Assembly: GCF_009834785.1 (NCBI RefSeq)
Contig: NZ_WUYX01000008.1
Location: 1-64,000, forward strand
Direction: 5' to 3'
Source: Natronorubrum halalkaliphilum
GTDB lineage: Archaea; Halobacteriota; Halobacteria; Halobacteriales; Natrialbaceae
Length of the DNA: 64,000 nt
Notes under the pieces: generated by a model
What the model was told of the DNA's origin: nothing
The model's input: only the letters and a program-made list of their open reading frames with translations
Database searches by the model: none
Shown: positions 3,659-17,113 of the stretch, one piece after another
Numbering within the stretch: position 1 is the first letter of the stretch
How the letters are laid out: each line of letters starts with the position of its first letter
Made by a program: the position numbers and the translations under genes

Positions 3659-3781
3659 GTCGTTACCAGAGAGTGTCGTCCCGATCAGCCGTCCACGAGC
3701 GATTCTTTGCAAACAGTGAGTCGGAGACACACCGCTCGGACGGATCGTCAACTTTTACTCTCCAACCGACCGACCCACGAC

Positions 3782-4348
3782 ATGGATCAGTTAAAGCGGT
3801 CGCTTCTCGAGGCGCCGATTATCGAGAAAAACGGCTATCACTACTTCGTACACCCGATCAGTGACGGTGTCCCGAAGCTCGATCCGGGACTCCTGCGCGA
3901 GATCGTCATCCGAATCATCCGGAAAGCCGAACTCGAAAACGTCGATCGGATCGTGACGCCGGCGGCGATGGGAATCCACATTTCGACCGCCGTCTCGCTG
4001 ATGACCGACATCCCGTTGACGGTCATCCGAAAGCGTCAGTACGGCCTCGACGACGAGGTCGCCATCTCCCAGAAAACCGGGTACTCGGAGAACGAGATGT
4101 ACATCAACGACGTCCGCGAGGGCGAGCGCGTGCTCGTCCTCGACGACGTCCTCTCGACGGGCGGCACGCTCGCGTCTGTCCTCGAGGCGCTCGAGGGCAT
4201 CGGCGCGGAAGTGATCGACACGGTCGCAGTCATCAAGAAGGTCGGCGGAGAGAACAAGGCCAGAGACGCCGGCTACGACATCAAGACGCTGATCAACGTC
4301 GACGTCGTCGACGGAGAGGTCGTCATCGTCGACGAGCACGGCGACTAA
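3782..4348 (+). CDS. hpt: Hypoxanthine/guanine-type purine phosphoribosyltransferase
   Basis: A 188-residue cytosolic type I phosphoribosyltransferase that salvages purine bases using PRPP. The PRPP-binding motif [13 protein letters not shown] is at about 117-129, preceded by the flexible-loop region with [21 protein letters not shown]. The sequence fits the archaeal HGPRTase/adenine-type group, so the preferred base (hypoxanthine, guanine or adenine) is not certain. I chose the ATG at 3782 because the protein then begins [12 protein letters not shown], as in haloarchaeal relatives, and a T/A-rich stretch (TTTTACT) lies about 28 bases upstream. An upstream in-frame start at 3707 adds an unconvincing basic stretch. 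Confidence 0.88.
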
Positions 4349-4986: not shown

Positions 4987-6921
4987 ATGGTGCAGGATCC
5001 CAAACAGTCCGATCAAGCCATCAATCGACGAACCCTCCTTCAGGGAGTCGGTGGTGCCGGAGTTGTAGCAGTTGCTGGATGTCTCGGTGACGATGACGAC
5101 AGCGATGCTCCGTTCCAACTACAGCTAGAAGTCAACGCAGACAACAGCGACCGCGTGCAGATGGTCGAGCTTATCGCTGCGTCTCTGGAAGACACGGGGT
5201 ACTTCGAGACTGAAATCGAGACCTACGAGTGGAACACTTACACTGGCCGCGTGCTGGATACCGAGTACGCCCAGAACGGGTACATTCCGTGTATCGGTCT
5301 TTCGGGCACCTTCAACCCGGAAAGTTTCTGTAACGCCCTCCATCACTCCGACAACCACGGGCAGTGTTGTAACCTGGTCGGTGTCGACGACGCCGAACTC
5401 GACGACATGATGGACGACGCACGGTACGGCATGGAAGTGTCGGAAGATCCCGACCTCCGTCGTGAACGCTACGACGACGTCTGGCACCACCTCGCCGAGA
5501 ACCGGTACAGTTCGATCACGCACTTCGACCTCCAGACGGCCGTCACGAGCACGGACGTCCACGGCTTCGACATGTGGCCGTTCGCGGAGGGCATGTTCAG
5601 CTACGCCCTCTACTCGCCACAGGAAGAGCAAGTCGCGTGGATCGACCGCGATAACGAGGCCTCCGAGGATGCCGATCTGTCCGACATCGAGGAAGGTGGT
5701 ACCCTCCACGGTGCGATCGCGGCGAACGTCGACGGGTTCGACTACCCGTACACCAGCGACACCACCTCGTCGATGTCCCAGTTCTTCATCTACGAGGCGC
5801 TGACGGCCTCCGACAGCGAAGGTAACGTCTACCCGTGGCTCGCCGAGAGCTACGATATCCTCGATACCCAGGACATCGACCGTCTCGCCTACGAGGACTA
5901 CATGATCACGGTCGACGCCGACGAAGAGGGTGCACTCGATACCGAGGAACAGATCATCGTTCAGCACCCCGAGGACGACCCAATCGGCGACGACGAGGTC
6001 CGCGTTCTCACTCCCGAAGAGGCTTCGGACGCCGTCGACGACGGCGTCTTCGGCATGCAGTTCCGATACGAACTGCGAGAGGGCGTCGAGTTCCACAACG
6101 GCGAAGAGCTCACCGCAGAGCACGTCGTCGCTTCCTACGAGCGCTACGAGAACTCCGACATCTCCGCACAGACGTTCGACTCGGTGCTCCACGCTCGAGA
6201 GGTCGACGAGTACACCGTTGACGTCTACGCGCAGGTTCCCGACGCAGAGGCCGAACGCGAGCTGCCGATCTACATCTACTCGCTCGAACAGGCCGACATG
6301 GAAGGCGGCGCCGTCGACCCACGAGAGGGCGTCACGCCGGTCGGTACGGGGCCGTACGAGCTCGACGACTTCTCCGACGAGGAGTACGTCGAATACACCA
6401 AGTTCGACGACTACTGGGTCGAACAGCAGGGTGTCGACTCGATCGACTGGTTCGACGGCTCCTCGGAGTTCCCCGACGGTCCCGTCGTCGAGAGAGTCGA
6501 ACTCGAAATCGTTCCGGACGACGCAACCCGATCCGGTGCCCTCCAGAACAACGAAGTCGACATCACCTACGGACTGGCGACGTCGACGCTCGACGACTTC
6601 GAGGCTTCGGACGACTACATCGTCCACGGCGTCGAAACCGGTGGCTACGAGTACATCCAGTACCCGCTCCACGTCGAACCGTGGGACGACGAGCGACTTC
6701 GCGAGGCTGTCAACCACCTCATCCCGCGTCAGCAGATCGTCGACAACGTCCTCAACGGCTGGGCGCGTCCCGCGTGGACGGACCTGCCGGAACTCGCACA
6801 CGGGACCGGGACGGTCGACCACGATGCACTCGAGGATGAAATCCGTCCGTACAACGAGTACGATCAGGAGCGTGCCGAAGAGTTGCTCGAAGAAGTCGTC
6901 GAAGATCACGACCTGAACTAG
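4987..6921 (+). CDS. Peptide-type ABC transporter substrate-binding lipoprotein, apparently circularly permuted
   Basis: A 644-residue family 5 solute-binding protein held on the outer face of the membrane. It starts with a Tat-type signal (NRRTLLQG, 13-20) and lipobox ending at Cys32, then an Asp-rich linker. Residues 41-223 correspond to what is normally the C-terminal domain: the stretch after the conserved YDxERAxELL motif, with VNADNSDRVQMVELIAASLE, GTFNPESFCNALHHSDN and the terminal VHGF segment. Residues 228-644 then run from the usual mature N-terminus (LSDIEEGGTLHGAIAANVDG) through FIYEALTAS, FRYELREGVEFHNGEELTAEH and GTGPYELDDF to YNEYDQERAEELLEE, and stop there. The order is therefore C-domain, then N-domain. 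The ATG at 4987 fits the TATA box; the upstream in-frame extension lacks a signal. Confidence 0.88.
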   Translation: MVQDPKQSDQAINRRTLLQGVGGAGVVAVAGCLGDDDDSDAPFQLQLEVNADNSDRVQMVELIAASLEDTGYFETEIETYEWNTYTGRVLDTEYAQNGYIPCIGLSGTFNPESFCNALHHSDNHGQCCNLVGVDDAELDDMMDDARYGMEVSEDPDLRRERYDDVWHHLAENRYSSITHFDLQTAVTSTDVHGFDMWPFAEGMFSYALYSPQEEQVAWIDRDNEASEDADLSDIEEGGTLHGAIAANVDGFDYPYTSDTTSSMSQFFIYEALTASDSEGNVYPWLAESYDILDTQDIDRLAYEDYMITVDADEEGALDTEEQIIVQHPEDDPIGDDEVRVLTPEEASDAVDDGVFGMQFRYELREGVEFHNGEELTAEHVVASYERYENSDISAQTFDSVLHAREVDEYTVDVYAQVPDAEAERELPIYIYSLEQADMEGGAVDPREGVTPVGTGPYELDDFSDEEYVEYTKFDDYWVEQQGVDSIDWFDGSSEFPDGPVVERVELEIVPDDATRSGALQNNEVDITYGLATSTLDDFEASDDYIVHGVETGGYEYIQYPLHVEPWDDERLREAVNHLIPRQQIVDNVLNGWARPAWTDLPELAHGTGTVDHDALEDEIRPYNEYDQERAEELLEEVVEDHDLN

Positions 6922-6986: not shown

Positions 6987-7943
6987 ATGAGCTTACGACG
7001 TTTCATACTGAAACGGGTACTTTCGATCATACCGATACTGTTCGGTGTCTCGGTAATTACGTTCGCCCTCGTTCATCTCACGCCGGGTGATCCGATCGAT
7101 CAGATGATCGGCTTGAATCCGGACATGACTCGGGCGGATGAGGCACAGCTCCGTGCCCGATACGGACTGGACGGACCGGTATGGCAACAGTACATGACCT
7201 GGATTGGGAACGTTATAACGGGGGATCTCGGACAGGTTTACAGCTCCGGACGGGACGTGTCCTGGATTATTCAGGCTCGACTGCCTGAGACCGTCGCGCT
7301 CGGTCTCTTCGGCTGGGCGTTCGGTCTCCTGATCGCGATTCCGACGGGGATCTACGCAGCCGTCAAGAAGGATCAGTTCGCCGACACCGCGAGCCGATTC
7401 CTCGCCCTGTCGGGCATCTCGATCCCGAACTTCTGGCTCGGTCTGATGCTGATCCTGATCGGATCGCTCTGGATCGGTCTGTGGCCGGTGTTGCCGCCGT
7501 CTCGACAGCCGCTGTACCACCCGGAAATGTTGTGGTACCTGATACTGCCCGGTATTACCATCGGGACGGCATCGGCTGCGAGTATTATGCGAGTGATGCG
7601 GACCTCGATGGCCGAGGAAATGAACAAAGAGTACGTGATGGCCGCGCGAGCAAAGGGTCTCCCCGAACGGACCGTCGTGCTCAAGCACGTCCTTCGGAAC
7701 TCGCTCATCTCGGTTGTCACGCTCGCCGCAACGCTGACCGCGAGTATCGTCGCCGGTTCGGTCGTCGTCGAGTTCGTGTTCAACTGGCCCGGACTCGGAC
7801 GGGAGTTCATTAACGCCATCAATCAGCGAGAGATAAACCTCATCATGGGGATTACGCTGTTTACCGGGGTATTCATCATCCTGGCAAATCTGCTGGCAGA
7901 CATCCTGTACGCGGTACTTGACCCAAGGATCCGATATGACTAA
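6987..7943 (+). CDS. dppB: Dipeptide/oligopeptide ABC transporter permease, DppB type
   Basis: A 318-residue inner permease that pairs with the next gene product to form the membrane channel. The N-terminal TM segment (RFILKRVLSIIPILFGVSVITFALVHLTPGDP) is the classic DppB/OppB opening. Five more helices follow, and the EAA loop that docks to the ATPases reads EYVMAARAKGLPERTVVLKHVLRNS. The ATG at 6987 gives the expected N-terminus; an upstream in-frame GTG adds 19 unrelated residues. A run of CATA-like tetranucleotides lies just before the start. It overlaps the next gene by 8 bases. Confidence 0.93.
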   Translation: MSLRRFILKRVLSIIPILFGVSVITFALVHLTPGDPIDQMIGLNPDMTRADEAQLRARYGLDGPVWQQYMTWIGNVITGDLGQVYSSGRDVSWIIQARLPETVALGLFGWAFGLLIAIPTGIYAAVKKDQFADTASRFLALSGISIPNFWLGLMLILIGSLWIGLWPVLPPSRQPLYHPEMLWYLILPGITIGTASAASIMRVMRTSMAEEMNKEYVMAARAKGLPERTVVLKHVLRNSLISVVTLAATLTASIVAGSVVVEFVFNWPGLGREFINAINQREINLIMGITLFTGVFIILANLLADILYAVLDPRIRYD

Positions 7944-8988
7944 GAACAGATCTACATCGACGGAACGCGGTCGAATCCAGATCTCCGGATTCGATTCTGA
8001 TCACGTCACGGAACGAGATCCGCTGTCCGGCTGGACCGAAGAAAGCGGCCGGGCGACACAGAGCCGGTGGGAACGCGCCTGGTCGCGTTTCAAGCGCAAC
8101 AGGTCCGCGATAATCGGTCTCGCGGTCGTGTCGATCCTGGCTCTGCTCGCGGTCTTCTCGCGACCGATCACGGTGTACGGACTGACGGTCCAGCCGTTCT
8201 CGATTGCGCCGTACGATCCGACGACGATCCTCTACCTGTCGGATCCGACGGTTAGTATCTACGACTCACCGTCGACTAGCCATCCCATGGGCGTTGATGG
8301 ATCCGGTCGAGACCTGTTCTCGAGAATCCTCTACGGCGGTCGGTACAGTATCTCGATCGGGTTCGTCGTCGTTGCACTTACCGCAAGCTTCGGTATGGTG
8401 TACGGCGCAATATCCGGATACTACGGGGGCTGGGTCGACGAGATTATGATGCGAATCGTCGACACCATCTTCGCGTTCCCAGGACTCATCCTGGCACTGA
8501 TCATCGTCGCGATTCTCGGCGGTGGCTACTGGCAACTCGTTCTGGCGTTCTCGCTGTTCGGATGGGCCACCTACGGTCGCCTGATCCGTGGTGAGGTGCT
8601 CTCTATCAAAGAAAACGAGTACGTGCTCGCCGCAAAAGCACTCGGTGCACGCGATCGGTCCGTCATCTTCAGACACATCATTCCGAACGCGATGCCGCCG
8701 TTGATCGTCTACGCGACGCTCAACATCGGGACCGTCGTTATCGGGGTCGCGGCGCTCGGATTCCTCGGACTCGGAATGCCGCCGGGCACGGCCGAGTGGG
8801 GGACGATGCTCGACCAGACTCGCGAAACGCTAATCCAGGGGCCTGACGGTTCGATCCCCTGGTGGGCAACCATCTATCCCGGCGCCGCGATCTTCATCTT
8901 CGTGATGGCGATGAACATGATCGGCGACGGGATCAACGACGCGCTCGACGCCCAGCAGACCGGCGTCGGGCAGGAGGGAGGTGACTAA
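7936..8988 (+). CDS. dppC: Dipeptide/oligopeptide ABC transporter permease, DppC type
   Basis: A 350-residue second permease. A polar N-terminus of about 55 residues precedes RWERAWSRFKRNRSAIIGLAVVSILALLAVF, the DppC N-terminal helix. A loop with HPMGVDGSGRDLFSRILYGGRYS follows, and the EAA docking loop is NEYVLAAKALGARDRSVIFRHIIPNAMPP. It ends with GDGINDALD, as DppC proteins usually do (GDxLRDxLDP). The start ATG at 7936 overlaps the end of dppB, and the stop is immediately followed by the ATG of the first ATPase, so the genes are translationally coupled. Confidence 0.93.
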   Translation: MTKNRSTSTERGRIQISGFDSDHVTERDPLSGWTEESGRATQSRWERAWSRFKRNRSAIIGLAVVSILALLAVFSRPITVYGLTVQPFSIAPYDPTTILYLSDPTVSIYDSPSTSHPMGVDGSGRDLFSRILYGGRYSISIGFVVVALTASFGMVYGAISGYYGGWVDEIMMRIVDTIFAFPGLILALIIVAILGGGYWQLVLAFSLFGWATYGRLIRGEVLSIKENEYVLAAKALGARDRSVIFRHIIPNAMPPLIVYATLNIGTVVIGVAALGFLGLGMPPGTAEWGTMLDQTRETLIQGPDGSIPWWATIYPGAAIFIFVMAMNMIGDGINDALDAQQTGVGQEGGD

Positions 8989-10068
8989 ATGACGCTACTC
9001 GAAGTAAACGATCTGACAGTAAAGTTCTACACGCAGGACGGCGTCGTCACTGCGGTCGATAACCTCTCCTATCAAATCGAGAGCGGCGAAAAGTTCGGGG
9101 TGGTCGGAGAGAGCGGTGCCGGCAAAAGTGTCACTGCACTTTCGCTGATGCGGCTCATCGACAGTCCCGGACAGATCGAAAGTGGGGAAATCCTGTTCAA
9201 AGGCGAGGACCTCCTCGAGATGAGCGAAGAAGAGGTCCGGAATATCCGTGGCAACGAAATCGCCATGATCTTCCAGGACGCACAGACCGCGCTCAACCCC
9301 GTGTACACGGTCGGCGAACAGATCGCCGAAGCGATCAGACACCACCTCGGCCACGACGAGGCGGAGGCTCGAGAACGAACGATCCAACTACTGGATCGTG
9401 TCGGCATTCCGGAAGCCGAAACGCGGTTTTCCGACTATCCACACGAGTTCTCCGGCGGGATGCAACAACGTGCCGTCATCGCGATGGCGCTGTCGTGTGA
9501 CCCCGACCTGTTGCTCTGTGACGAGCCGACGACCGCACTCGACGTGACGATCGAGGCCCAGATCCTCGAGGAACTCGAGGAACTGGCCGACGATTTCGAC
9601 ACGGCGATCCAACTCATCACGCACGACCTCGGCGTCGTCGCCGAAGTCTGTGACCGAGTGATGGTGATGTACGGTGGGAAGCCGGTCGAGAAGGCGCCGG
9701 TCGAAGAGCTCTACTACGACCCCAAACACCCCTACACCGTCGGTCTGATGAGTTCGATCCCGCGTGTCGGGGACGACCGGGACCGATTGCAGACGATTCC
9801 CGGGACGATGCCCGATCTGGTCGAACTGCCGCCGGGCTGTAGCTTCCACCCGCGATGTCCGTACGCGGAGGAGTCGTGTACGCGCAAGGAACCGCCGCTT
9901 CTCGACCCCGAAACCGGCGAGGAAGCTGCCGGAACGGCGAACGAACACGCGGCTGCCTGCCTCGAATACAGCGGCGAGCTACAGGGCGGACTCGACTACT
10001 CCGTCGAGATCAACGATTCGCAGGGGGAACCAACCGCCGTGAATCCGGAAGGTGATCGCAATGACTAG
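8989..10068 (+). CDS. dppD: Peptide ABC transporter ATP-binding protein, DppD type
   Basis: A 359-residue cytosolic ATPase. Walker A is GESGAGKS (about 40-47), the Q-loop is in [11 protein letters not shown], the signature is FSGGMQQR, Walker B is [12 protein letters not shown], and the H-loop is in LITHDLGVV. The C-terminal oligopeptide-transporter domain is recognisable by [17 protein letters not shown] and a later Cys. The DppD assignment rests on position and on this C-terminus. The start codon directly follows the dppC stop, and the gene overlaps the next ATPase by 8 bases. Confidence 0.93.
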
Positions 10069-11458
10069 ACACGACGAACCGATCCTCCGCGCGGAGAACC
10101 TGACGAAGTACTACGACAGCAGCGGCGGGGTTATCGACAACCTGCTCGGGAACTCCCAGTGGGTCAAAGCCGTCGACGGCGTCGATTTCGAACTACGCGA
10201 GGGAGAAACCCTCGGCGTCGTCGGGGAAAGCGGATGCGGAAAGAGTACGCTCGGCCAAGCGCTGCTCAGACTGATCGAACCTACCGACGGATCGATCTAC
10301 TATCAAGAACGGGTCGATTCCGAAGGCGGGTCGGGCCAGCGCGAAGAGATCGACCTCACTGAAGTTTCCAGTTCGCGACTTCGCGATCTCCGAACGGACC
10401 TCCAGTATATCTTCCAGGATCCGTTCTCGAGCCTGAATCCGCGCCTGACCGTCGGCGACATTATCGGGGAACCGCTCGATATTCACGGCATCGCATCGGG
10501 CGAAGATCGAGACGAACACATCTACGACCTCCTCGAGACCGTCGGGTTGAACCCGAGTCACGCACACCGCTACCCACACGAGTTCTCCGGCGGACAGCGC
10601 CAGCGGATCGGGATCGCCCGAGCGCTGGCGGTCGATCCGGAAGTCATTATCTGTGACGAACCGGTCAGCGCACTCGACGTCTCGGTTCAGGCACAGATCC
10701 TCAACCTGCTCGAGGACCTCCAAGAGGAGTTCGGACTGTCCTACGTCTTCATCGCCCACGACCTGAGCGTCGTCGAGCATATCTCGGATCGGATCGCGGT
10801 CATGTATCTCGGAGAGTTCGCTGAGGTCGGCACGACCGAAGATGTGTTCTCGCCGCCGTACCATCCGTACACGGAGGCGTTGCTCTCGGCAATTCCGGAG
10901 CCGGACCCTCTCTGGGAAGGCGAGCAAATCTTCCTCTCCGGAACCGTCCCCTCGCCGATTGATCCGCCGTCGGGCTGTCGGTTCCACACGCGGTGTCCCC
11001 GCGTGATCCCGCCGGCCGAGTACGACCTCGAACAGGAGGTCTGGCGCTCGATCATGGACCTCAAGCTTCGGGTCAGGGGCGTCGATACTGCCGAAGCCAT
11101 CGCCGTGCTCGACGATGGTGGAAACGGAGACAACGAACCGCTCACGCTGGACGATATCGCCAGAGACAACTTCGACAGTCAGGTCAGAGCGGAGTTCGAT
11201 CTCCCACAAACGATTGCCGACCCCACTGTCGAACAGTCGCTGTCGCAGGCCATTGACGAACTCTACGCCAAGAACCTCGGCGCGGCACAGGACCTCCTCG
11301 AGGACGCGTTTACCTCGCCCTGTGAAGTCCATCAACCGGAGCAGGTTCCGACGGGCAAGACCCATCGGATCTCGTGTCTGCTCTACGACGATCGGTACGA
11401 TGACGGGCAGTTCCGGTCGACATCCGGCGGTACCGGAGACGCCATCGCCGACGACTAA
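10061..11458 (+). CDS. dppF: Peptide ABC transporter ATP-binding protein, DppF type, with split C-terminal domain
   Basis: A 465-residue partner ATPase. Walker A is GESGCGKST, followed by a [10 protein letters not shown]-loop, the signature FSGGQRQR, Walker [13 protein letters not shown] and the H-loop IAHDLSVV. The C-terminal cysteine motif CRFHTRCP is followed by about 110 extra acidic and helical residues before the closing cysteines (SPCEVHQ and ISC). This makes it longer than bacterial DppF (about 330). The same insertion occurs in the second DppF-like protein at 12217-13578, so it is a lineage feature and not a frameshift. The ATG at 10061 is chosen over a GTG nine bases upstream. It is the last gene of the operon. 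Confidence 0.92.
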
Positions 11459-11541: not shown

Positions 11542-12105
11542 ATGCGTCGCATCTACGAATCGGGAGCCCTTCATCGCGATGACGAACACTTTACCCCGAA
11601 CAAACGAGACAGATCCTACCGACCGCAAGCGCTGCGCTCGCTGAACTCGACTCGGCTGAGTCGGTCTCTCCTGCCGAACCGATTCGGCTATCGAGCGATT
11701 TCGATCAGCGTTTCGACGCCCCGGGAGGAGTTTGCGTCCGATACCGCGATCCCGTTTCAAGTGACGATGAAAAATACGCTGCCGGTCCCCGTCACGGTAC
11801 CAACGAACTCGCCGGTGTTGTGGACGTGGGACGTCGACGGCACAACAAATGCCTCGCGCGTTCCGCTCCACGACCCACCCGAGGAGTCGGGCGCGTTCGT
11901 TTTCGACCGCGGCGAACGAAAACAGTTCACGAAGGGCTGGCAGCAACTGTTCCGCGTCTCCGAAAGCGAGTGGGAGCCGGCCGAACCCGGCGAGTACACG
12001 ATCGGTGCCGAGGTAAACGTCGACAACGCGGACAAGAAAGGACTTCGCGGGACGACGACCGTTCGTATCGTTCCAGAGACCGCGACAGACGCGGACGGAC
12101 GATAA
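11542..12105 (+). CDS. Uncharacterised beta-rich protein, BsuPI-like
   Basis: A 187-residue protein without a signal peptide or TM segment. The first 55 residues are basic and polar. The rest looks like a beta-sandwich: ISISVSTPREEF, PFQVTMKNTLPVPVTVP, FDRGERKQFTKGWQQLFRV and EPAEPGEYTIGAEVNV. The spacing of the GW and PGEY segments is reminiscent of the BsuPI proteinase-inhibitor fold, but only weakly. It lies between the two peptide transporter clusters, transcribed with the first and convergent with the second, so an accessory role is conceivable but unproven. Confidence 0.6.
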   Translation: MRRIYESGALHRDDEHFTPNKRDRSYRPQALRSLNSTRLSRSLLPNRFGYRAISISVSTPREEFASDTAIPFQVTMKNTLPVPVTVPTNSPVLWTWDVDGTTNASRVPLHDPPEESGAFVFDRGERKQFTKGWQQLFRVSESEWEPAEPGEYTIGAEVNVDNADKKGLRGTTTVRIVPETATDADGR

Positions 12106-12216: not shown

Positions 12217-13578
12217 CTACGGCCACGACAGCGGCTCCGCGTCGACTGACGGATCGTACCGATGACAGCGAACCGGTCGCTCGCAGTCGGTTCCGTCGGA
12301 CGGCGTCGAGCGCTCGCAGACGGTCGGAATCGCTTCGGCGAGCCGATCGCGCGCCACCTCGAGGTCGCCGCGGACGATGGCGTCGACCGCGTCGTCGACA
12401 CCGCGATCGACCCGCTCGTCGGGGATGTCCGACGGGAGTCCGAAGGTTTCGCGGACCGTGGCCTCGTCGACGGCCGTCGTGCCCGCGTCCGGTTCGATCG
12501 CGGCGGGCAGTTCGTCGGCCTGGAGGGTAAAGCGGAACGCGGCGATCGTCTGCCAGAGTTCCCGGTCGAGGTCGACGTCTTCCGGCGGGATGAGCTCCGG
12601 ACACCGCGTGTGGAACCGACAACCCGACGGCGGATCGCTCGGATCCGGAATCGTATCCGTCAAGGGCCGGACCAGCTCGCGGTCCGACGGATCGAGACTC
12701 GGAACCGAGCCGAGTAACGTGCGCGTGTAGGGATGGGCGGGCGCCTCGAGCACCTCGTCGGTCGGCCCTTGTTCGACGATTTCGCCGAGGTACATGACGC
12801 CGATTCGATCACAAAACCGTCGAACGACGTCGATATCGTGACTGATGAACAGTACTGCGATATCGAATTCACGGCGGAGTTCGTCGAGCAGGGCGAGGAC
12901 GTCGGACTGAACGCGACCGTCGAGTGCGCTCGTCGGTTCGTCGGCGACGATCAAATCCGGGTTGAGCACGAGCGCCCGTGCGATCGCAATCCGCTGTTTT
13001 TCGCCGCCGGAGAACTCGTGGGGGTATCGATCGACGTCGTCAGCCGAGAGACCCACTCGCTCGAGGAGATCGGTTACGATCGCTTGGCGGCGGTCGGCGT
13101 CATCCATTCCGTGGAGCGCGAGCGGTTCGGCAACCGCCTGCCCGATCGTCAGCCGCGGGTTGAACGCCTCGTTCGGGTCCTGGACGACGAGTTGTGCTCG
13201 GCGGCGGAACGCACGAAGATCGGCACCCGAAAGGGACATGATCGAGTCCCCATCGAATCGGATCTCGCCGCCGGTGGGCTCCTCGAGTCGAAGGGCCGAA
13301 AGCGCAGTTGTCGTCTTTCCGCTGCCGGATTCGCCGACGAGACCGAACGCCTCACCGTCACGAATTTCGAAACTCACGCCGTCGACGGCCCGGACGCGGC
13401 CGACCTCTCGTCGAAGCAGTCCGCGCGTGATCGGAAAGTGCGTTTCGAGGTTTTCGACCTCGAGGAGGGGGTGTGAATCGTCAGGAACGGCGGCGCGGTC
13501 CCCAGCGGCGTCGCTTTGCGTGTCGTGGTCCGGCTGTACGGCGGGAGATCGAGAGCGGTCGGTGCTATGGTCAGTCAT
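12217..13578 (-). CDS. Peptide ABC transporter ATP-binding protein, DppF-like (second transporter)
   Basis: A 453-residue ATPase. It has Walker A GESGSGKTT, QDPNEAFNPR Q-loop, signature FSGGEKQR, Walker B LIVADEPTSALD and the H-loop FISHDIDVV. As in the first Dpp[10 protein letters not shown] is followed by an insertion of about 100 residues before the final cysteines (TVCERS, DCERPVRCHRY). The N-terminal 35 residues are a polar extension. It overlaps the upstream DppD-like gene by 8 bases, which implies one transcript. It is clearly a paralogue, not a copy, of the 10061-11458 gene. Confidence 0.92.
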   Translation of the reverse strand: MTDHSTDRSRSPAVQPDHDTQSDAAGDRAAVPDDSHPLLEVENLETHFPITRGLLRREVGRVRAVDGVSFEIRDGEAFGLVGESGSGKTTTALSALRLEEPTGGEIRFDGDSIMSLSGADLRAFRRRAQLVVQDPNEAFNPRLTIGQAVAEPLALHGMDDADRRQAIVTDLLERVGLSADDVDRYPHEFSGGEKQRIAIARALVLNPDLIVADEPTSALDGRVQSDVLALLDELRREFDIAVLFISHDIDVVRRFCDRIGVMYLGEIVEQGPTDEVLEAPAHPYTRTLLGSVPSLDPSDRELVRPLTDTIPDPSDPPSGCRFHTRCPELIPPEDVDLDRELWQTIAAFRFTLQADELPAAIEPDAGTTAVDEATVRETFGLPSDIPDERVDRGVDDAVDAIVRGDLEVARDRLAEAIPTVCERSTPSDGTDCERPVRCHRYDPSVDAEPLSWP

Positions 13579-14644
13579 CGGTTGGTTCCTCGATGAGGGT
13601 GTTTACGGCGGCATCGTCGTGGAGGATCGGTGCCGGATCATGTTCGGGGCCGTAGTACAGACACGATGCCCCGTGTGTTTTGCGGTCATCGACGGTGTAA
13701 AACGGCGGCTGATCGCCACCCGCACAGGCATCGATCGCGTGCGGACATTCATCGCGGAACCGACAGCCGTCGGTTGGGATGTCGCCGCGAGCGGACCGAT
13801 CACCGCGGCGTGAAAGCCCGTCGTAACTATCGAACAGCGACCGGGTGTAGGGATGGGCGGGCTGGCTGTACAGCGCCTCGATCGGGCCGCGTTCGACGAT
13901 CGTTCCACCGAACATCACGAGGACGCGATCGGCGAGTGCGGCGGCGACGCGCAAGTCGTGTGTGATCAACAGGACGGACATCCCGCCGTCGGTGAGTTCT
14001 CTGAGGAGTTCGATCAGCCGGGCCTGTACCGTGACGTCGACGGCGGTCGTCGGCTCGTCTGCGATCAGCAGCGCCGGATCCGCCGCGAGTGCGATCGCGA
14101 TCGCAACGCGCTGTTGCATCCCGCCGGAGAACTCGTGTGGATAGTCGTCGATACGGGTCGGGGCGTTCGGAATCCCGACCTGCCGAAGCAACTCGCTCGC
14201 CCGCTCGCGAGCGTCCGATTCGGAGATCTCTTCGTGGATGGTAATCGCTTCGACGAGTTGGTCGCCGACGGTATAGACGGGGTCGAGTGCGCTCTGTGGG
14301 TTCTGAAAGACGTGTGCGATCTCGGTTCCACGAATCGAGCGAAGCGTCGACTCGCTGGCCTCGAGCAGGTTTCGCCCCTTAAACTCGACCGTTCCACCGA
14401 TGATTTCGGCGGGCGGTTGGGGAACGATCCCGGTCAGTGACTCGCAGGTAACGCTCTTTCCGCTGCCGGATTCGCCGACGAGACAGACCGTCTCTCCGCG
14501 GTTGACGGTAAAGCTCACGCCGTCGACGGCGTGGATGGTTTCCCGTTCCGTTCGAATCCGCGTCCGAAGGTCGTCAACGCTCAACAGCGGTTCTTCATCG
14601 TCGGATCGGTCCTGCGGTGTCGTGGTGTGTGGCTGTGTCGACAT
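13571..14644 (-). CDS. Peptide ABC transporter ATP-binding protein, DppD-like (second transporter)
   Basis: A 357-residue ATPase with Walker A GESGSGKSVT, FQNPQSALDP Q-loop, signature FSGGMQQR, Walker B LLIADEPTTAVD and the H-loop LITHDLRVA. The C-terminal domain has GCRFRDECPHAIDAC and a closing SCLYYGPEHDP. It follows the permease with a 3-base gap and overlaps the next ATPase, so C, D and F form one minus-strand operon. Confidence 0.92.
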   Translation of the reverse strand: MSTQPHTTTPQDRSDDEEPLLSVDDLRTRIRTERETIHAVDGVSFTVNRGETVCLVGESGSGKSVTCESLTGIVPQPPAEIIGGTVEFKGRNLLEASESTLRSIRGTEIAHVFQNPQSALDPVYTVGDQLVEAITIHEEISESDARERASELLRQVGIPNAPTRIDDYPHEFSGGMQQRVAIAIALAADPALLIADEPTTAVDVTVQARLIELLRELTDGGMSVLLITHDLRVAAALADRVLVMFGGTIVERGPIEALYSQPAHPYTRSLFDSYDGLSRRGDRSARGDIPTDGCRFRDECPHAIDACAGGDQPPFYTVDDRKTHGASCLYYGPEHDPAPILHDDAAVNTLIEEPTDD

Positions 14645-14647
14645 GAG

Positions 14648-15841
14648 TCAGTGAGTTCGTCGGGGATCGAGTGCGTCGCGAAGTCCGTCACCGACGAGTT
14701 TCAGGGACGCGAGCGTGAGCGTAAGCGCGATTGCCGGGAAGGTCGAGACCCACCAGATCTCGTGTGGGTCCATAACGAAACCGATACCGGTGAGCGGCGG
14801 ATCGAGCCCCTCCTGAATGGTCGACCCCCACGAGTAGAGTTCGATATGGTGGAACCCGAGGAAGGCGACGCCGGCTTCGACGAGCACGAGCAGCGCAAGC
14901 AGGTGGAACACGGCGGGGATGAGCGTGTTCGTGATATTCGGAACGATGTGACGTTTCGCTATGTAAAGCGGCGATGCCCCGAGGCTTCGTGCAACGAGTA
15001 CGTACCCGTCTTCGCGGCGCTGAAGCGTCTCACTTCTGACCAGACGGGCGATACCACCCCAACTGAACAGTCCGAACATGACCAGTAACAGAAGCAGCGA
15101 GACGTTCCAGTACATGTAGCCGATGAAGAACACGACGATTGCCGGGATACAGAGCTGAATGTCGACGTAGCCCATCAACAGATCGTCGATCCGACCGCCA
15201 CGGAAGCCGGCGAGGATGCCGACGATTGCGGCGAGTGGAACGACGAACGCTGCGGTAAAGACGAGGACATACAGGGCAATTCGAGCTCCTTCGATGAGGA
15301 GGTGACCGAGGGGATGTCCGCGGTGGTCCGTCCCGAGAGGGTAGGTCAGCGAGCCCTCACAGTAACGAGTTACCCCTTCACCCGCCGTCATCGTCCCGAG
15401 ACAGTCTGCGTGCCAGCCGGCCTCGCTCGTAAACCCGTACGGTGCATGAAAGCGGTGCTGGAATGCGAGTTCGGGTGAGCCAACGATGATCGGTCCGACG
15501 ACGGCAACGAACGAGAGCACCGCCAGAAACCCCACTGCGGCTGCGTGAATCGGCCGGGAAACCAGACGCCCCAAGACGCGCAGCGTTAAGTCACGCTGCC
15601 GAACCGCGGGGACGACCACGAGTGAGAGCAACACGGCGACCCCCAGCAATATTACCCAGTCGAGCAACTCCAGTCGCCATCCGAGCGAAATGACATTCGA
15701 CGACTCGAGCGCGTAGAGTGCGGCGAACAGAACCATGGCAACGATAAATGCCGTTCTCGTCGGCGTGTGGAGCCGTCCTGAACGGTCTATCTCGTCCCAG
15801 TCTACCCGCTCGAAACGGTTGGGGTCGTCAGGCTCACTCAT
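14648..15841 (-). CDS. Peptide ABC transporter permease, DppC-like with extra N-terminal helices (second transporter)
   Basis: A 397-residue permease. Before the standard DppC core it has two additional hydrophobic segments (about 30-50 and 58-78). The loop after the core's first helix is long (about 120-170) and contains two cysteines (ADCLG, RYCEG). The EAA loop reads DGYVLVARSLGASPLYIAKRHIVPN, and the C-terminus GDGLRDALDPR is diagnostic. It is divergent from its likely partner at 16130; the A/T-rich promoter lies within about 35 bases of the start. Confidence 0.9.
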   Translation of the reverse strand: MSEPDDPNRFERVDWDEIDRSGRLHTPTRTAFIVAMVLFAALYALESSNVISLGWRLELLDWVILLGVAVLLSLVVVPAVRQRDLTLRVLGRLVSRPIHAAAVGFLAVLSFVAVVGPIIVGSPELAFQHRFHAPYGFTSEAGWHADCLGTMTAGEGVTRYCEGSLTYPLGTDHRGHPLGHLLIEGARIALYVLVFTAAFVVPLAAIVGILAGFRGGRIDDLLMGYVDIQLCIPAIVVFFIGYMYWNVSLLLLLVMFGLFSWGGIARLVRSETLQRREDGYVLVARSLGASPLYIAKRHIVPNITNTLIPAVFHLLALLVLVEAGVAFLGFHHIELYSWGSTIQEGLDPPLTGIGFVMDPHEIWWVSTFPAIALTLTLASLKLVGDGLRDALDPRRTH

Positions 15842-16129
15842 GGAGGACGACCGGAATAATATACTATTATATATTAAAAGTATCTGTATTGAGCACTCGA
15901 TGGTACCACTAAAAGAAGCAATACGTTTTTGTCACGAAGGTCGGTATCAGGCACCAATGCTCTCCAGCGGATGTTGCTGCAGTTGTGACGCCTTCCGGGA
16001 CGGGAAAACCCGGTTTAGGCCCAGCAACCGCCACGCCTACGCACAAATTTACGCGTTCCTGGATCGGCAACGACAGCGACGATCGTCAGTTCGTGGCTCT
16101 CGAGTCCCGTCAACCGAACGGTGGGTTGG
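15842..16129. promoter_or_regulatory. Divergent promoter region of the second peptide transporter
   Basis: An A/T-rich block at 15855-15881 contains overlapping TATA-like sequences, placed correctly for the minus-strand permease start at 15841. GTATTG at 15886-15891 and AAGCAATAC at 15916-15924 form an inverted pair (GTATTG and CAATAC). The latter is identical to one arm of the inverted repeat before the first transporter (4947-4955). No clear TATA box sits at the usual distance from the plus-strand gene, so that gene probably has a longer leader. No ORF in this stretch is convincing. Confidence 0.5.
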
Positions 16130-17113
16130 ATGAATTTCGTCCGGATCGTCGCCAAGCGGGTTGCGCTGGGTCTCGTCGCGGCCTGGGCCGTTTTGACGGT
16201 CGTTTTCGCCGTGTTTACGATGAGTGATGACTGGATCGAACAGACTATCGAGGGTGCGATGCGTTTTCAGGGGGCTAACGAAGCCGAGATCGAACGATCG
16301 ATCGAGGAGTATCTCGCGACACACGGGTTCGACCGTCCGCTCTACGAACTGTATTTCGACTGGATGGGAAACATGCTGACGTTCCAGTGGGGCGAGGCGT
16401 TTTTCCTGGAAGCTGACAGGGGCTCCGGTGCCGGATTCTACGGGACCGGCGACCCGGTGTTCCCGATGGTCGCCGACGCCGTACTCCGAACGGGAATGTA
16501 CGTTCTCCCGGCGATCGTGCTTGCAATTGTCGCCGGTGTTCTCATCGGACTCTACGCCGCGATGAACCCGCAGAGCCGCCTCGCCGGATCGGGGATGAGT
16601 ATGGCGTACCTTCTCTTTGCCGTCCCGAACTTCTGGATCGGCGGGATGCTCCTGTCGTACGCAGCCGGCGGCGTGATTCCGGATTCGACGCTGCTGTTCG
16701 AGCACATCTTGCCGATCACGCTCACTGCGACGACCTTACTCGGCGGCTATGTCGCGTACTCGCGTGCACACTCGATCGAGTACGCGTCTGCGGATTTCGT
16801 AACCCTCGTGAAGGCAAAAGGGGCCAACCGTATTCGGATAGCCACACACATCGTTCGGAATTCGGCGATTCCGCTGTTCTCGATGCTCTTTACCGAAGCG
16901 CTTGCGCTGCTCGTTCTTGCCGTCTTCGTGATCGAATCACTGTTCCAACTGGACGGGTTCGGATCACTGCTCTTCAACGCGGTTCACATGCGCGACCTGC
17001 CGGTCGTCCTCGGCTGCACCCTCGTCATTATTGCGGTCGGTATCCTCGGCAACATCGTCCAGGACCTGGCCTACAGTAGCCTCGACCCGCGTGTCGATAC
17101 GGGCAGTCGCTAA
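16130..17113 (+). CDS. Peptide ABC transporter permease, DppB-like (second transporter, divergent)
   Basis: A 327-residue permease. The N-terminus MNFVRIVAKRVALGLVAAWAVLTVVFAVFT is the DppB-type first helix. Further helices and the docking loop DFVTLVKAKGANRIRIATHIVRNS follow, ending with a YSSLDPRV motif as in DppB. It should pair with the DppC-like permease encoded on the other strand at 14648-15841, an uncommon split of the two permease genes. I prefer the ATG at 16130 over a GTG at 16121. No substrate-binding protein gene accompanies this set. Confidence 0.9.
   Translation: MNFVRIVAKRVALGLVAAWAVLTVVFAVFTMSDDWIEQTIEGAMRFQGANEAEIERSIEEYLATHGFDRPLYELYFDWMGNMLTFQWGEAFFLEADRGSGAGFYGTGDPVFPMVADAVLRTGMYVLPAIVLAIVAGVLIGLYAAMNPQSRLAGSGMSMAYLLFAVPNFWIGGMLLSYAAGGVIPDSTLLFEHILPITLTATTLLGGYVAYSRAHSIEYASADFVTLVKAKGANRIRIATHIVRNSAIPLFSMLFTEALALLVLAVFVIESLFQLDGFGSLLFNAVHMRDLPVVLGCTLVIIAVGILGNIVQDLAYSSLDPRVDTGSR

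Follow-up and report, generated by a model that had tools for sequence, protein, structure and literature searches.

We describe a gene for a substrate-binding lipoprotein of a Dpp/Opp-type ABC importer. Judged by its amino acid sequence, the protein is a natural circular permutant within family 5 (SBP_bac_5, cluster C). The gene lies in a stretch of 64,000 bp (hereafter the window) from the genome of Natronorubrum halalkaliphilum (contig NZ_WUYX01000008.1, positions 1-64,000). Trees and junctions show that changes of block order have recurred in family 5, at several breakpoints. We consider it very probable that the reading as a whole is correct, namely that the protein is a family 5 permutant that kept its fold and partner, that it originated in place by duplication, and that the order changed repeatedly.

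As a rule, circular permutation in nature is observed between homologues that are only distantly related. The case described here comprises four arrangements of one gene that share one operon in related organisms, and orthologues with about 70% identity exist in either order, which makes the route of permutation and its effects on binding, export and lipid anchoring directly testable. The gene for the permuted substrate-binding protein (SBP) seems to have been recut at several points in evolution, with its function apparently kept. In practical terms, family models capture permuted SBPs only in part, collinear alignment of haloarchaeal transporters will err, and the natural breakpoints mark permissive sites for biosensor design.

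Results

The reading frame (4987-6921, plus strand, as are all features of the gene and its operon) is intact. Its product has 644 residues and carries both an RR motif and a VAGC lipobox, in keeping with the preliminary description, which had called the frame open and the signal peptide intact. The Tat-type signal peptide (NRRTLLQGV) and lipobox, read from the translation, occupy positions 4987-5082, with the lipidated cysteine at residue 32; by inspection, the RR motif and VAGC lie within residues 14-32 at the N-terminus, and permuted orthologues share this start and lipobox. A short acidic linker (LGDDDDSD; 5083-5106), recognized from the translation and by comparison of junctions, leads from the lipobox to the C block (residues 41-223; 5107-5655), a segment that forms the C-terminal third in canonical family 5 SBPs and now stands first. 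A second acidic linker of about 13 residues, also delimited by junction comparison (residues about 222-234; 5650-5688), joins the old C-terminus (..VAWIDR) to the old N-terminus (EEGGTL..). It is followed by the N block (residues 235-644; 5689-6918), which represents the N-terminal two thirds and ends after the helix NEYDQERAEELLEEVVEDHDLN, and by the stop codon (6919-6921). Evidence for both blocks comes from alignments with PDB chains and relatives and from the junctions. The earlier limits of the C block (41-223) stand; the N block, previously set to begin at residue 228, starts slightly later, with EEGGTL at residue 235.

The protein matches the Pfam model SBP_bac_5 (PF00496) with 196 bits (cut-off 32.4) in two stretches. 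In phmmer searches against the PDB, residues 357-591 aligned with residues 102-320 of 5u4o and residues 52-163 with residues 371-474; for 3m8u, residues 352-637 aligned with residues 61-340 and residues 43-199 with residues 350-497. A weak match placed residues 229-293 on residues 35-100 of 5u4o. Because the matches to PDB chains come in swapped order, the C-terminal third comes first, then the linker and then the N-terminal two thirds, and since the same relatives are matched by both blocks in their entirety, the swap is more than chance. Alignment with solved DppA-type proteins, which the preliminary description had suggested as a check of its proposed exchange, thus gave two blocks in swapped order, and alignments with relatives gave the same exchange. 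According to PDB chains, relatives and junctions, the two blocks cover the entire canonical protein and can be rejoined without loss; rejoining restores the normal order, as had been predicted, and yields ...NEYDxERAxELLxEV followed by FPLxVxLExNADN..., as in canonical orthologues. The protein departs from the canonical N-to-C order of the fold and is homologous to it throughout, as a permuted variant.

The best matches in sequence and fold are cluster C proteins rather than proteins with the cluster B (type I) fold. An AlphaFold2 model based on a 29-row alignment was of moderate quality (pLDDT 61.7, pTM 0.62), and its top Foldseek matches were cluster C binding proteins with TM scores of 0.3-0.5 only, which is expected when a collinear aligner meets a permuted, moderate model; these predictions support the assignment of the fold class. 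Scores against NCBIfam family models were far below cut-off, and a match to GATase_7 (E 0.1) was dismissed as noise. A PDB search with the junction profile A1 found no chain that convincingly spans the permuted junction.

The SBP gene is encoded beside genes for DppBCDF-type permeases and ATPases, identified by Pfam and synteny: dppB (6987-7943) and dppC (7936-8988) for the permeases, and dppD (8989-10068) and dppF (10055-11458) for the ATPases. Upstream lies a gene for a hypoxanthine/guanine (purine) phosphoribosyltransferase (3776-4348; NCBIfam HPT_Archaea, 248 bits; synteny), and the operon ends with a conserved gene of 187 residues, gene X (11542-12105; synteny), which had no Pfam or NCBIfam match. 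By tblastn, the order phosphoribosyltransferase - SBP - B - C - D - F - X is conserved, with identities of 48-87% for B and 59-88% for D. The phosphoribosyltransferase is the upstream neighbour in most orthologous loci and was not found in some of the stretches compared; gene X is found in nearly all of them, with canonical and permuted SBPs alike. The function of the protein would be import of the peptide type. As a separate observation, the archaeal phosphoribosyltransferase upstream could hint at a purine-related substrate. A second dpp-type cluster lies at 12217-17113; its dppF, dppD and dppC are read from the minus strand, and its dppB runs divergently on the plus strand. No SBP_bac_5 gene was found beside it within the window.

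At the orthologous locus, the SBP has the order C-N in the window and in L043-L046 and L053, the order C-N with another break (site B, see below) in L116, L117, L121 and L127-L132, the order N-C-N in L134 (one metagenome-assembled genome, MAG), and the canonical order N-C in L098-L101, L103-L111, L118-L120 and L122-L126. The canonical SBPs at this locus in other haloarchaea are up to about 71% identical to the SBP of the window. Four arrangements at one locus indicate repeated permutation of a single gene in place.

Proteins of the window type (site A) consist of the lipobox, a short acidic linker, FPLxVxLExNADN..., ...PQDEQVMWMDE, an acidic linker, DLQEGGTL... and ...NEYDPERAEELLEEVVEDHDL before the stop; the canonical orthologue has the lipobox, an acidic linker, DLQEGGTL..., ...NEYDTERAGELLDEVGEDLGLEYPLEVTLETNADN... 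and ...QAMWLERE before the stop. This comparison places the new termini in the loop between the helix NEYDxERAxELLEE and the following strand. At site B (L035-L041, L116, L117, L121), the break precedes the helix, which is kept with the C block. At site C (MAG G050; L029/L134/L136), about 100 N-terminal residues were transferred to the end of the protein, giving the order N108-413, C, N5-88 in block-model numbering; L134/L136 correspond to the orthologous SBP at G050 C138:2909-4810, and site C was found in this single MAG. Site D occurs in three Chloroflexota genomes (L167-L169) with the order N146-348 (N123-344 in L168), C, N5-139, and the break in these bacterial family 5 SBPs falls between ...FEYWTAYFGSFLN and ...IKSIEAVDDYTV. 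At site E (haloarchaeal L150 and L141), the last part of the C block is followed by N and then by the first part of C; this site is less certain because its first piece is weak alone (11.0 and 5.9 bits). The family has at least five different breakpoints, sites C and E being represented by one and two sequences, and permutation is recurrent and widespread in haloarchaea.

A second large haloarchaeal group (L008, L137-L140, L142-L149, L151-L156) is permuted at or near site A and typically ends with ...GYxWDxDGRLHYPxE. Five of the 12 SBP_bac_5 reading frames in the window genome are permuted (contigs C13, C39, C38 twice, and C44). The four outside the window (L182, L184-L186; C38:75917-76936, C38:78730-79725, C39:35610-37148 and C44:221741-222556) are permuted at or near the same site as the SBP of the window and belong to another, older clade. 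In a control set of 23 classified rows (L048-L070), two were called permuted, L053 (Halorubrum, window type) and L067 (Chloroflexota, site D); both calls are genuine, so that none of the other 21 rows was miscalled. Five proteins that initially appeared to cross the junction, wholly or partly (L170-L173, L175), proved canonical. A search of 150 genomes of Pseudomonadota at E 1e-16 gave no junction-spanning match, which is a weak negative.

A single clade of window-type permutants was rejected in the SBP tree (p-AU 1.3e-4) and likewise in an independent DppB+C+D tree (p-AU 2.5e-4), both rejections depending on one sister pair, the permuted L078/L192 and the canonical L107; with L078/L192 left out, a single clade was not rejected (p 0.14 and 0.345, respectively). 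The L078 and L107 proteins are 73% and 69% identical in the two blocks. L078/L192 and L107 are sisters in the N-block, C-block and operon trees, and the agreement of the three trees implies that the order changed in place, whichever the direction. Joining the window type with the second haloarchaeal site-A clade (6e-5) or with site B (2e-64) was rejected, and with the former a single origin of all site-A permutants; all of these AU rejections presuppose that the model fits. Together with the different breakpoints, they suggest that block order changed about six times in the family, once each for window A, the second A group and sites B, C, D and E. A 69-row tree requires ten.

The direction of change within the window clade may also have been the reverse. 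It is quite conceivable, if somewhat less so than several permutations there, that the permuted order is ancestral in this clade and that the canonical genes nested within it (L098-L106, L021, L107) are reversions, as the trees do place these rows among permuted ones. However, the inner branches are short, and reversion costs the same number of steps as permutation; recombination with a canonical homologue could help it.

As for mechanism, we infer that the permutation arose in place at this dpp operon. The most likely path is a tandem duplication that kept the reading frame and fused the copies, after which the redundant ends were lost while the Tat/lipobox segment remained in front. Permutation by duplication is the favoured route (reviewed in PMC3320104), and we prefer it on two grounds: the export signal has to remain at the front, and this path has been documented well (PMC3320104). 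The clade of the window yielded no duplicated intermediate. L157 (Chloroflexota G425 C43) was considered as such an intermediate and set aside: it repeats in tandem, exactly and in frame, 194 N-block residues together with part of the signal peptide. Of the two blocks the repeat contains the N block only, and it could be a recent duplication or an assembly error. Fission of the gene into two reading frames that were re-fused in the other order, with no tandem duplication, is the other of the two standard routes (PMC3320104) and would agree with the lack of duplicated intermediates; we regard it as rather improbable, as the C half would require its own signal peptide and none of the genomes among the loci examined has separate half genes at the locus.

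The fold is most likely that of the canonical orthologues, and since the operon partners are unchanged, the protein most likely takes the same substrate and passes it to the same DppBC permease. The lipid anchor, formerly on the lobe of the old N-terminus, would now extend from the lobe that contains the new break. We tentatively propose, with rather more doubt than confidence, that haloarchaeal family 5 SBPs are a permutation hot spot in which one operon gene was opened at at least three places and its order switched repeatedly, possibly both ways, perhaps selected via the anchor moved to the other lobe. If this is true, the moved anchor perhaps changes the docking of the SBP on the permease or its stand-off from the membrane.

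Among 392 genomes sampled from the order, 32 from three families (counted from the match table) have the window-type order, collinear and with 53-72% identity; these include the single-contig chromosomes G019, G148, G346 and G353. Isolates with species names that show this order are Halobiforma nitratireducens, Natronorubrum texcoconense, Natronococcus pandeyae and Halorubrum aidingense. In a set of 61 relatives, seven other genomes had one collinear match over nearly the whole protein (58-71% identity), and further relatives matched residues 226-642 and then 34-224, which is the canonical order, with up to 67-73% identity per block. The dN/dS ratios in seven pairs of permuted genes were 0.06-0.26, and by this measure the gene is under purifying selection. 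Natural fusions of gene pieces exist and the window genome has many family 5 paralogues, so that a functionless chimera or decaying remnant, in which the C block of one paralogue was fused before another, truncated one, could be imagined. It is very improbable: the nearest relatives are the same for both blocks, the N-block and C-block trees agree on their main groups, so that the protein is not a hybrid of two paralogues, stop codons are lacking, dN/dS is well below 1, and signal peptide, lipobox and operon are retained. An assembly or misjoining fault that exchanged two parts of an ordinary gene, the main alternative in the preliminary description and suggested by the draft state of the genome (72 contigs), is excluded for practical purposes because dozens of independent assemblies show the same order, linker and ends, some of them single-contig chromosomes; the search of close relatives proposed there as a check was what revealed them.

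Discussion

Canonical family 5/cluster C SBPs (DppA, OppA, NikA, GsiB; PF00496) share with the protein of the window the homology of both blocks, export as a lipoprotein and a dppBCDF operon; the permuted protein differs in having the order C-N instead of N-C, an anchor presumably attached elsewhere on the fold and an acidic linker that joins the old termini. A full-text search found no natural permutation in family 5, most subscription journals being outside its coverage, which agrees with the preliminary description for the family itself; a natural permuted SBP of another cluster was already known. This closest precedent is TpMglB-2 (Tp0684) of Treponema pallidum, which is a natural circular permutant and a membrane-tethered ABC SBP like that of the window (PMC4990184); it belongs to cluster B and binds glucose, and its authors propose the term 'Type Ic / cluster Bc'. 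TpMglB-2, for which ligand binding was demonstrated, differs in its cluster B sugar-binding fold, its breakpoint and a permuted part that lacks clear sequence homology; the passages considered describe no orthologous locus with both orders, such as exist for the SBP of the window. Saposin/swaposin and the intermediates of DNA methyltransferases (PMC3320104) represent the same class of rearrangement, but their folds are unrelated, and in the secreted lipoprotein described here the export signal had to stay in front.

Permuted and canonical SBPs also occur side by side. In L096, L097 and L113 (genomes G145, G175 and G326), an operon with a permuted SBP and one with a canonical SBP face each other at a distance of some 10 kb; the former appears to comprise only dppB and dppC in L096 and L097.
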